Below are positions 4,497 through 7,253 of a stretch of DNA of 11,701 bases, piece by piece. This DNA is from an uncultured Acholeplasmataceae bacterium. GTDB taxonomy: Bacteria; Bacillota_I; Bacilli_A; Acholeplasmatales; Acholeplasmataceae. Made by a program: the position numbers and the translations under genes. The notes under the pieces are model-generated. The model was not told where the DNA came from, did not search any database, and was given only the letters and a program-made list of their open reading frames with translations. Location of the stretch: positions 1-11,701 of the forward strand of contig CAMOAP010000028.1 of the NCBI GenBank assembly GCA_946577115.1, written 5' to 3'. Position 1 is the first letter of the stretch. Each line of letters starts with the position of its first letter.

Positions 4497-4823
4497 TTAA
4501 ATCTTTATTTTTGTAAATAATTTTTTTATTAAAGGGTTAAAAACATAATTATTATATTTAGCATCCGCAATTATGTCTTTTAAAAAAATGATATTTAATT
4601 GTAATAAATTTTTAGTAATATTGGCATCTTTTGTTAAGGGAAAAGTTTTATTAGGATTTTGCAAAAAACTTTTTAATATTTCTTGTTCTAAATGGCTACA
4701 AAACAATAAATAATTTATAATTTTGTTTTTAAATTTTTTGCTATAAAAATAATTCATTATAAAAACAACTAAAAGGCAAATAAAAACAATAAACATAAAT
4801 GTAAAAAAGACACTTTCAAACAT
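4497..4823 (-). CDS. Hypothetical membrane-anchored protein, 108 residues
   Basis: I do not recognise this protein with confidence. It has one strong hydrophobic segment at about residues 5-27, followed by a basic stretch (SKKFKNK), which suggests an N-terminal anchor with a cytoplasmic tail. The tail (about 43-108) alternates short helices with a hydrophobic pattern ending in VFNPLIKKLF. It could be a small winged-helix-like fold, loosely reminiscent of proteins annotated as superinfection exclusion protein B; that resemblance is only by pattern and memory. The gene starts 4 nt after the stop of the UPF0154 gene, has no visible Shine-Dalgarno and is the last gene before the shared terminator. 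Coupled translation from the upstream gene is likely. Confidence 0.7.
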   Translation of the reverse strand: MFESVFFTFMFIVFICLLVVFIMNYFYSKKFKNKIINYLLFCSHLEQEILKSFLQNPNKTFPLTKDANITKNLLQLNIIFLKDIIADAKYNNYVFNPLIKKLFTKIKI

Positions 4824-5082: not shown

Positions 5083-5643
5083 CTAAATTTTTTGATAAAA
5101 TTTAATTTTTTTATTACCATATTGTTTTTCTTTTTGCAAAAAAAATTCTTTAATTTGTCTAGGTAAAACAATTTTTCGATGTAATTCACAAATAATAATG
5201 CTATTTTGATGTGTTAATTTGTTCAAATATTCAAAAGAAGGCAAATAAAAATCTTTAAAATAAGGAGGGTCTAAAATAATAAAATCAAAAATCAAATTGG
5301 CTTTTTGGAATTTTTTTAAAGCTTGAACAAAATGCCCATAAAAAATAATGCTTTTTTTCAAATCCAGTTTTAATTTTTGTTGGTTTTCTTTTAAGGTTTT
5401 AAAAGCTTTTAAGGAAGAATCAACAAAATAGACTTGTTTAGCATCTCTGCTTAAAGCCTCAAAACCATAAGAACCGTTACCTGCGAATAAATCTAAAAAG
5501 ATTTTGTTTTGTACTGATGCTCCCAAAGTATTAAAAAGAGATTCCTTGACCAAAGAGCTAGTGGCTTTGGTGTGAGGTGATGGTACTAGTTTTATTTTGT
5601 GCCCTTTGAATTTGCCTCCAATGATAATTGTTGTCTTTGTCAT
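5083..5643 (-). CDS. rsmD: 16S rRNA (guanine(966)-N2)-methyltransferase RsmD
   Basis: This is a SAM-dependent methyltransferase that makes m2G966 in 16S rRNA of the small ribosomal subunit. It has 186 residues, the family's usual length. The N-terminal IIGGKFKGHKIKL (7-19) matches the RsmD start, followed by KATSSLVKESLFNTLG (26-41). The SAM-binding motif I is DLFAGNGSYGFEALSR (51-66), the acidic ribose contact lies in VYFVDSS (71-77), and the catalytic DPPY is at 125-128. The ATG overlaps the stop of the upstream 77-codon ORF (ATGA, 5640-5643) and has only an A-rich leader, so translation is probably coupled. Confidence 0.93.
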   Translation of the reverse strand: MTKTTIIIGGKFKGHKIKLVPSPHTKATSSLVKESLFNTLGASVQNKIFLDLFAGNGSYGFEALSRDAKQVYFVDSSLKAFKTLKENQQKLKLDLKKSIIFYGHFVQALKKFQKANLIFDFIILDPPYFKDFYLPSFEYLNKLTHQNSIIICELHRKIVLPRQIKEFFLQKEKQYGNKKIKFYQKI

Positions 5644-5873
5644 GAAAATATTTTTCTTTTGATGGAGTTTTTTAAAGAGGATAAAACTTCTTGATAATAG
5701 AAAGGAAAAGGGGGCTCTTTTTGACTGAAATCATCAAAATTAATTTTAAGAAGTTTATAGACATCTGGATTAAGATTAAAGTAAGCTAGCTTTTGAAAAT
5801 ATTTTATTTTACAAAAATTTCTTTGAGGTTCTAAGTTGTCACTTAACAATATCATTTTATCGCCATAATTCAT
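5640..5873 (-). pseudogene. Probable C-terminal fragment of a YqeK-type HD domain
   Basis: This ORF of 77 codons begins at an ATGA overlap with the yqeG stop. Its residues 6-18, KMILLSDNLEPQR, match the conserved end of YqeK diadenosine tetraphosphatases (K-V-I-Y-x-A-D-x-I-E-P-N-R in B. subtilis, as recalled). The following part keeps the YqeK tail pattern up to KEPPFPFYYQEVLSSL. The spacing from an 'AI' in the last part of YqeG to this lysine is 15 residues if the two frames are joined, the same as in YqeK. It therefore reads as the continuation of the domain begun in YqeG, in the -1 frame. One missing A in the A5 run at 5873-5877 would explain the break. It may be dead, or expressed as a coupled small protein. 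Confidence 0.6.
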
Positions 5874-6793
5874 TTTTGTATCACCCCAAATATGTTTGTG
5901 ATGGCATTAAGAATAGTGATATTTGTGATGCCGAATTCTTTTTTTACGATGTTTAAAGCAGATAGAGTGTTAAAAATGGCAGTTTTTTTGATGTATTTTT
6001 GGATATTGGCTTGAGTAAGATGGGGTTTTTGTTGTTCTAAGGTATCTTTTTGGGTGTAATTATTAAATAAAGATGAAATTTGAATAGTTAATAAAGGTTT
6101 GTTATAATGTCTTACCATTTTGGCATCGGTACGATAAGTCCTTATAGTGTGTTCTAACCGAGAAGTATAATTTTTTAATTTAGCTTCGACAGCTTGATGA
6201 ATTTTGTGCAAAAACATATTATTTTTTTTTTCTTCAAAGTCTTGAAATTTTTCTCTCCAAAGATGATAATCTTGTTTTTTGATATTGGTTAAAAACTTTT
6301 TTTCTCGATAAAAACGATTGAATTTAGTAAACGCACTTTCTTGAATGCGATTTAGGGGTTTTACTAACAAAGAACCAAAACCTGCTTGATTAGCTCCTTT
6401 TATATCTGTTTGGAGTTGGTCTCCTATCATCAACATTTGTGTGGGTGCTAAATTGAGAAGTTGGCATGCTTTTTGAAAAGCTTTAGGGGATGGTTTTTTG
6501 TTTAATAAGTTCAAATATATAAAAGTAAAATCTTTTTTTAAAACTTTATCGAGGCGTTTTTTAGAGGCATTAGAAAGAATAACAACTTTAAAAACAAGAG
6601 ATAATTGAGTTAAAAAGGTTTTAATTTGCTCATCTAGAATATCTTTGTTGTATTCAATTAAAGTGTTGTCTAGATCAAAAATTAACGCTTTAATGCCTTG
6701 TTTTTGAAACAACCCAAAAGGAATTTGCAAGACACAAGGAAAATAGTGTTGAGGGATGAAAAGTTTGTTGGGATAATGCATTTTATTTGACAT
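5870..6793 (-). CDS. yqeG: YqeG-family HAD phosphatase with C-terminal degenerate HD (YqeK-like) domain
   Basis: Residues 1 to about 165 form a YqeG-type HAD-IIIA phosphatase. DLDNT (40-44) gives the nucleophile D40 and acid D42, SN (74-75) is motif II, the lysine of NKKPSP (98-103) is motif III, and GDQLQTD (124-130) is motif IV. B. subtilis YqeG is about 170 residues; this ORF has 307. The extra part (about 195-307) resembles the N-terminal two thirds of YqeK: RLEHT (212-216), SLFNNYTQ (241-248) where YqeK has the metal-binding FHDYAK, and ALNIVKKEFGI (279-289) with NAI (296-298) where YqeK has GAYLVQREAGV and DAI. The HD pair is N244-N245. The stop falls inside the domain. The start overlaps greA by 11 nt; ATG at 6781 is an alternative. 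The substrate is unknown. Confidence 0.82.
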   Translation of the reverse strand: MSNKMHYPNKLFIPQHYFPCVLQIPFGLFQKQGIKALIFDLDNTLIEYNKDILDEQIKTFLTQLSLVFKVVILSNASKKRLDKVLKKDFTFIYLNLLNKKPSPKAFQKACQLLNLAPTQMLMIGDQLQTDIKGANQAGFGSLLVKPLNRIQESAFTKFNRFYREKKFLTNIKKQDYHLWREKFQDFEEKKNNMFLHKIHQAVEAKLKNYTSRLEHTIRTYRTDAKMVRHYNKPLLTIQISSLFNNYTQKDTLEQQKPHLTQANIQKYIKKTAIFNTLSALNIVKKEFGITNITILNAITNIFGVIQK

Positions 6794-7253
6794 CTACAAT
6801 TTTGACTCTAAAAGTGTTGCCAGTTTCACTGGTAACAAAAACAACATCTCCTATTTGATGTCCTTTGATGTTTTGTCCCAAAGGCGATTCAATCGAAATT
6901 TTGTTTGTAAAAGGATCCGCTTCCAAGGTGCTTACTAATTCAATTTCTTGTTGTTGTTTGGTTTGTAAAAGCTCCAAAGATACTTTTTTGCCAATACTTA
7001 CTTCTCTTTCTTTGGAAACTTTAACGACACGGACATTTTTTAAAATATTTTGGATTTCTGAAATACGATGTTCTATTAAAGCTTGTTCGTTTCTAGCAGC
7101 ATCATAATCAGCGTTTTCTGATAAATCTCCTTGTTCTCGCGCTTCTTTTAAAGCTTCTAAATTTTCTCTTCTTTTAACTTCTTTTAAAAAAGTTAATTCT
7201 TTTTTTAATTTTTCTATTCCTGATTGGGTAAGTTCATAAATTTTATTATTCAT
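6783..7253 (-). CDS. greA: Transcription elongation factor GreA
   Basis: GreA rescues backtracked RNA polymerase by stimulating cleavage of the 3' end of the transcript through the secondary channel. At 156 residues it has the usual length. The N-terminal coiled coil spans about 10-75, with the tip AREQGDLSENADYDAARNEQ (38-57) carrying the acidic pair D43 and E46. The C-terminal globular domain includes PLGQNIKGHQIGDVV. The ATG is preceded by AAGAAGG at about 10 nt. The gene follows trmR by 51 nt and its end overlaps yqeG by 11 nt. Confidence 0.96.
   Translation of the reverse strand: MNNKIYELTQSGIEKLKKELTFLKEVKRRENLEALKEAREQGDLSENADYDAARNEQALIEHRISEIQNILKNVRVVKVSKEREVSIGKKVSLELLQTKQQQEIELVSTLEADPFTNKISIESPLGQNIKGHQIGDVVFVTSETGNTFRVKIVDVK

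Follow-up and report, generated by a model that had tools for sequence, protein, structure and literature searches.

An apparent YqeG-YqeK fusion in an aster-yellows-type phytoplasma is most likely an intact yqeG with the remains of yqeK as its tail

Introduction

Does a phytoplasma reading frame that begins as YqeG and runs on into YqeK-like sequence encode a two-part enzyme, or has one gene been read into the ruins of its neighbor? The question is raised by a stretch of 11,701 nucleotides (the window), which is contig C28 of a draft assembly of 62 contigs and 441,643 bases, estimated to be 78% complete, from a plant-infecting, aster-yellows-type phytoplasma (genome code G000 in this analysis). 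The nearest named relatives that we found are two other phytoplasmas, Onion yellows OY-M (L003) and 'Candidatus Phytoplasma tritici' (L002); over the yqeG/yqeK stretch the OY-M sequence is that of G001, and the tritici sequence is that of G026. A comparison of the window with a plasmid collection gave no DNA match.

YqeK elsewhere is a hydrolase of the HD superfamily that acts on Ap4A and related nucleotides. A first-pass annotation of the window described YqeG fused to a YqeK-like domain split by a frame change between a 307-codon frame and a 77-codon ORF. Both frames are indeed present on the minus strand where they had been placed (Table 1), the second is in -1 relative to the first, as the coordinates confirm, and the long frame's TGA and the short one's ATG share bases.

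Table 1. Features of the yqeG/yqeK stretch, in positions of the window
Feature	Position	Strand	Basis or remark
greA	6783-7253		flanks the 307-codon frame on one side
307-codon frame	5870-6793	minus	open reading frame list
yqeG proper, 189 codons, predicted HAD phosphatase	6227-6793	minus	TIGR01668, 92.3 bits over residues 10-160 of the 307-codon product; relatives' alignment
Ten-A run at the place of the yqeG stop in four close relatives	6222-6231	minus	alignment
Very probably decayed yqeK, first part, in frame with yqeG	5900-6235	minus	74% identity to OY-M YqeK residues 2-113
His29 site (S. pyogenes YqeK numbering)	6149-6151	minus	kept
HD motif site (His58, Asp59)	6059-6064	minus	Asn-Asn
Lys62 site	6050-6052	minus	Gln
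His91 site	5969-5971	minus	Asn
Frame change in YqeK homology, approximate	5897-5902	minus	OY-M alignment
Very probably decayed yqeK, second part, other frame	5643-5897	minus	76% identity to OY-M YqeK residues 115-199
His117 site, second frame	5892-5894	minus	kept
77-codon ORF	5640-5873	minus	later part of the second yqeK piece; its ATG corresponds to an internal Met codon conserved in YqeK
Asp135 site, second frame	5838-5840	minus	kept
rsmD	5083-5643		flanks the 77-codon frame on the other side

Results

The YqeG part

The match of the long product to the YqeG profile lies above that profile's cut-off of 89.1 bits. Over the 189 codons of yqeG proper there is no gap or stop relative to G001, G002, G020 and G026, and none relative to G018 over 187 residues. 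The HAD motifs of YqeG are DxDNT, SNxS, a conserved Lys and GDQxxTD, and inspection of the translation by eye finds FDLDNT, LSNAS, NKKPS and GDQLQTD. We suggest that the window YqeG is itself probably still active, as the HAD phosphatase that it is elsewhere; the protein of B. subtilis has been studied as a 5'-nucleotidase (PMC5080769). The YqeG part was matched in 27 of the 29 genomes of the genus, and a tail like that of the window occurs in no other genome listed. Among the matches listed from a 150-genome sample of the order, which leave aside the weakest YqeG matches, the window frame is the longest, at 307 aa, the next being 263 aa.

Two pieces of one YqeK

Residues 190-307 of the long product match positions 8-99 of TIGR00488 (18.4 bits) and the 77-aa frame matches positions 110-150 (19.3 bits); the corresponding matches to PRK07152 are to positions 185-285 (21.2 bits) and 297-345 (15.7 bits). 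All are far below the cut-offs for YqeK, which are 70.15 bits for TIGR00488 and 315 bits for PRK07152, and a scan of the window's genome with TIGR00488 reached 22.8 bits, again below 70.15. Pfam searches of residues 190-307 and of the 77-aa frame found no HD-domain hit for either. The first-pass annotation had proposed profile searches and would have taken an empty result as refutation of YqeK; the NCBIfam matches, weak as they are, fall in the right order, and together with the OY-M comparison they overrule the Pfam result. Judged from these alignments, the domain is there, and Pfam misses it only because it has decayed too far.

The same annotation advised looking for an intact ORF in related phytoplasmas, and OY-M has one, a separate YqeK frame of 199 aa that overlaps the end of yqeG. 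Against TIGR00488 the OY-M protein reaches 105.8 bits; five distinct solved sequences match it, two of them named bis(5'-nucleosyl)-tetraphosphatase. As a query, the OY-M protein aligns with the window first in one frame and then in the other (Table 1), and the colinearity of the pieces with the whole of OY-M YqeK identifies them as parts of one YqeK. The proposal that the two pieces together cover a YqeK domain therefore stands for two halves, as the profiles and the colinearity indicate, and fails for a full domain with a single slip; YqeK in the window occupies two frames rather than one open reading frame. Our literature search found no paper with both yqeK and phytoplasma, and six with both yqeG and yqeK.

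The frame change and the missing yqeG stop

The break between the frames had been assigned to an A5 run at 5873-5877, where the ATG of the 77-codon ORF lies. YqeK homology in the second frame extends upstream of this ATG, reading KHIWGDTKMNYGDK, and the frame change is therefore near 5902-5897, some 20 bases ahead of the A5 run. All nine aligned sequences share the ATG at 5873 as a Met codon; it did not arise here as a start. The overlap of TGA and ATG might suggest that programmed frameshifting or a coupled restart yields a YqeK in two parts. Since the ATG is a conserved internal codon, the homologous frame is already open farther upstream and any product would be without active-site residues, we regard the chance of such a mechanism as practically negligible.

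The apparent fusion has its origin elsewhere, at the end of yqeG. In OY-M, G002, G020 and G026, yqeG ends at a stop codon that the window lacks; the ten-A run is found in its place. Homopolymer errors have been warned of in some 16SrI phytoplasma drafts (PMC7366425), and given this caution and the draft status of the assembly (62 contigs and incomplete, as noted above), an assembly or sequencing artefact may have produced the open join at the run, with yqeK decayed all the same and yqeG ending near its usual place. We hold this to be a possible, though the less likely, account of the join, because the stop bases themselves are replaced, which goes beyond a difference in run length, and because the other genes compared are without frame errors, with one possible exception. 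Of 12 further genes of the window that served as queries, 11 aligned without gaps on either side with G001, G002, G020 and G026; pepV differs in length in G026 and is cut by the ends of the sequences fetched from G001 and G002. The possible exception is an ORF of 108 aa at 4497-4823 on the minus strand, which in OY-M and tritici has 115 aa and a different C-terminal end; by this comparison the last codons of the window ORF may have changed frame. Among the relatives, G026 has single stops in comt and pepV, and G001 has one in a second pepV-like match. The case for decay of yqeK stands apart from the ten-A run, because the substitutions described below show decay by themselves.

Active-site residues

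S. pyogenes YqeK has two magnesium sites, one with His29, His58, Asp59 and Asp135, the other with Asp59, His91 and His117, and its activity falls when His29, Lys62, His91 or His117 is changed (PMC11857287). In the phytoplasma sequences we located these residues by motif and spacing. Four of the seven metal or catalytic residues (His58, Asp59, Lys62 and His91) are substituted in the window yqeK and three are kept. The string SLFNNYTQ, which had been cited as a YqeK feature of the window, stands where OY-M has ALFHDYTK, and the HD motif itself is therefore lost. Asp59, which bridges the metals, is kept in all six intact copies aligned (OY-M, G002, G018, G019, G004 and G024) and replaced in all three broken copies (those of G000, G026 and G020). 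Relative to the other residues, of which 38 of 176 are changed, the four changes in seven active-site positions are a borderline enrichment (one-sided p = 0.05).

Substitution rates

In comparison with OY-M, the dN/dS of the window yqeK is 0.49, whereas that of eight other genes is 0.08-0.21 (yqeG 0.21, rsmD 0.14, greA 0.08, alaS 0.20, thyA 0.13, folA 0.14, plsC 0.19 and orf142 0.14). These values are pairwise counts rather than the product of a fitted codon model. With G018 as outgroup and the branch split calculated by hand, the window branch has 41 non-synonymous changes in yqeK and the OY-M branch 5.5, as against 10 on each branch in yqeG (Fisher test on rounded counts, p = 0.003). The contrast in rates is weaker when the comparison is made with G018 itself, at 0.33 for yqeK and 0.15-0.32 for the other genes. 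At 0.31 and 0.33 relative to OY-M, the yqeK dN/dS of G020 and G026 is only somewhat higher than that of the remaining genes, which go up to 0.25 and 0.27, respectively. The rate of the window yqeK relative to OY-M suggests that it has been released from selection.

The distribution of changes over codon positions also bears on the possibility that the 118-residue tail has been retained as a non-catalytic domain of YqeG. The tail has remained free of stops, and its 74% identity to OY-M extends over 112 residues. However, window-specific changes in the first yqeK part fall on codon positions 1, 2 and 3 in numbers of 16/7/7, without a third-position excess, as against 3/1/11 for OY-M-specific changes in yqeK, and the tail is present in no other genome examined; we consider retention very unlikely. 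A more specific form of the idea, in which YqeG captured the dead part of YqeK by loss of a stop at a gene overlap and the tail is both made and kept as a domain gained, serving as a non-catalytic regulator or partner surface, would seem to have just as little chance of being right. In the second yqeK part the window-specific changes are 9/4/4. For yqeG itself the window-specific changes are 7/5/7, with less third-position skew than in G026 (6/2/11) or G020 (6/3/11), which suits the reading of a decayed yqeK beside an intact yqeG less well.

yqeG and yqeK in relatives

Both frames could be located in 18 of 23 loci, and in all 18 yqeG and yqeK are separate, yqeG ending at its own stop. Of the remaining five, G010 and G023 have a yqeK frame that the motif missed, G008 has no yqeG frame, and in G020 and G026 yqeK is broken. 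In 17 of the 18 the opening of the yqeK frame falls between -65 and +80 bases from the yqeG stop; in G005 it is at 738. There was no protein with both domains among the 120 of 134 hits listed, and none of those is longer than 213 aa. In G014, G016, G021, G022, G023 and G027 both domains lay within an open frame of 373-396 aa, which looked like a natural fusion; for all but G023, the frame list shows yqeG, a stop, and yqeK in the same frame, and these five were rejected.

If the window encoded a genuine YqeG-YqeK fusion enzyme, interrupted only by a single recent frame break or a sequencing error, this would account for one frame that spans YqeG and over half of YqeK, with the rest in a second frame. 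It would leave four substituted active-site residues that no frame error explains, a raised dN/dS in yqeK, and separate genes in every relative in which both frames were located. We find it extremely unlikely on these grounds, and the fused enzyme of the first-pass annotation is given up. The window yqeK is instead very probably a decayed gene, a pseudogene by the evidence of its sequence, joined onto the yqeG frame.

Breakage of yqeK is not confined to the window. The copy in G020 is broken elsewhere, with about 80 bases missing near its start, and that in G026 elsewhere again, with frame changes and stops. In a tree built from eight genes other than yqeK (6,789 columns), a branch with 88% support separates G000, G020 and G026 from G001, G002 and the outgroup G018. 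The best fit is that function was lost once, early in the group of G000, G020 and G026, and that the copies then broke differently; separate losses in the three genomes are possible. Across the 29 genomes of the genus, TIGR00488 found YqeK above its cut-off in 21 and as remains below it in 3, and gave no match in 5 (G006, G007, G009, G012 and G017); yqeK can therefore be lost. One YqeK match was found in G000, and since that assembly is only 78% complete, a second yqeK elsewhere in the genome is possible. A NUDIX enzyme was considered as a backup for YqeK. One NUDIX match was found in G000 and none in any of the five genomes without a YqeK match, and the losses are not explained in this way.

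In two non-phytoplasma genomes of the order (G138 and G035) the gene order is yqeG-yqeH-yqeK, with rsfS after yqeK or fused to it. RsfS had no match in the 29 phytoplasma genomes. YqeH scores at most 57 bits in these 29 genomes and 172.5 and 259.4 bits in the two non-phytoplasma relatives, all below the cut-off of 297.4; we read the phytoplasma hits as other GTPases. The suggestion that genes between yqeG and yqeK had been lost thus holds for yqeH. The YqeK-RsfS fusion of G035 (L065, 143-1066) is a single frame of 307 aa that scores 104.2 bits against TIGR00488 and 60.5 bits against TIGR00090, and the 23 YqeK frames of 286-318 aa among the matches listed from the 150-genome sample of the order may be the same fusion.

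Group II intron matches in other phytoplasmas

Two inserts interrupt yqeG in G003. Against the Rfam group II intron model they score 46.8 and 39.2 bits, the second just below the gathering score of 40. They lie on the minus strand of L069 (G003:C1:393000-397200) at 3287-2134 (1154 bases) and 2020-1285 (736 bases), with no long ORF inside, and when the flanks are joined at the model 3' ends and the 5' insert sequence that the two share, a stop-free YqeG of 186 aa results. Group-II-intron-like inserts also split yqeK in G005 (L070, 1177-1841) and G008 (L071, 672-1654), and in both the flanks join in frame. Each of these two loci has a further intron match (L070, 541-648; L071, 401-480) for which a simple search found no partner end.

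Across the 29 phytoplasma genomes, Rfam group II intron matches with E up to 0.001 number 55 in G003, 66 in G005, 53 in G008 and 52 in G023, genomes of about 0.5-0.6 Mb; G006 has 18, and the other 24, among them the window's genome with 1, have at most 14 each. Matches to the group II reverse transcriptase (maturase), many of them fragments, number 39 in G003, 19 in G005, 8 in G008 and 7 in G006, and the same search gave none in G023. Published accounts describe phytoplasma group II introns within an insertion element or in few copies (PMC3750655, PMC4299374), and among the titles, abstract openings and selected passages covered by our literature search there is no report of such a load in phytoplasmas. 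The intron load of G003, G005, G008 and G023 is a more surprising observation than the decay of yqeK, and these intron-rich phytoplasmas deserve a study of their own.

Discussion

The apparent two-part enzyme is most likely a single intact enzyme followed by a dead tail. We suggest the following course of events. Comparison with the two non-phytoplasma genomes shows that yqeH was lost from between yqeG and yqeK, leaving the two genes to abut or overlap in phytoplasmas. YqeK may then have become dispensable in the branch of G000, G020 and G026; each copy is broken in its own way, as the differing lesions in the three genomes show. With the yqeG stop missing in the window strain, yqeG would read 118 codons into the dead yqeK. 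If the ten-A run is correct, the resulting 118-residue tail is presumably meaningless; if it is wrong, YqeG would end near its usual place. Neither the tail nor the 77-codon ORF would have a useful function.

The yqeK case is ordinary reductive decay. Its value lies in the removal of a false fusion and in a clean case of a reduced genome losing a gene beside an intact neighbor. It also bears on what YqeK is kept for. In mycoplasmas YqeK is fused to NadD (PRK07152), and the role proposed for YqeK there is NadD proofreading (PMC9426524). NadD had no match in the 29 phytoplasma genomes of the genus, and NAD synthesis genes besides nadE are described as not found in four phytoplasma genomes (PMC3322544). 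Because 21 of the 29 have YqeK without any NadD match, proofreading of their own NadD cannot be what keeps YqeK, and phytoplasmas keep or lose YqeK without a NadD partner.

Four known systems invite comparison with the window. Its first 189 codons are those of YqeG (HAD-IIIA phosphatase, TIGR01668), with a score above the cut-off, and differ from other YqeG genes in the 118 codons of apparently decayed yqeK that follow. The remainder is colinear with YqeK (bis(5'-nucleosyl)-tetraphosphatase (symmetrical), TIGR00488 / COG1713) over OY-M residues 2-199, and departs from it in having two frames, four active-site substitutions and pieces that score far below the cut-off. Like the mycoplasma NadD-YqeK fusion, the window has YqeK-like sequence placed C-terminally on another protein; in contrast, the domain that precedes it is YqeG rather than NadD, and the YqeK part is broken. 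A further parallel is given by phytoplasma metabolic pseudogenes such as the folP and folK reported from clover phyllody phytoplasma (PMC3322544), which are likewise frame-broken metabolic genes in a reduced genome. The window differs in that another gene is affected and in that its remains extend the frame of the gene before it.
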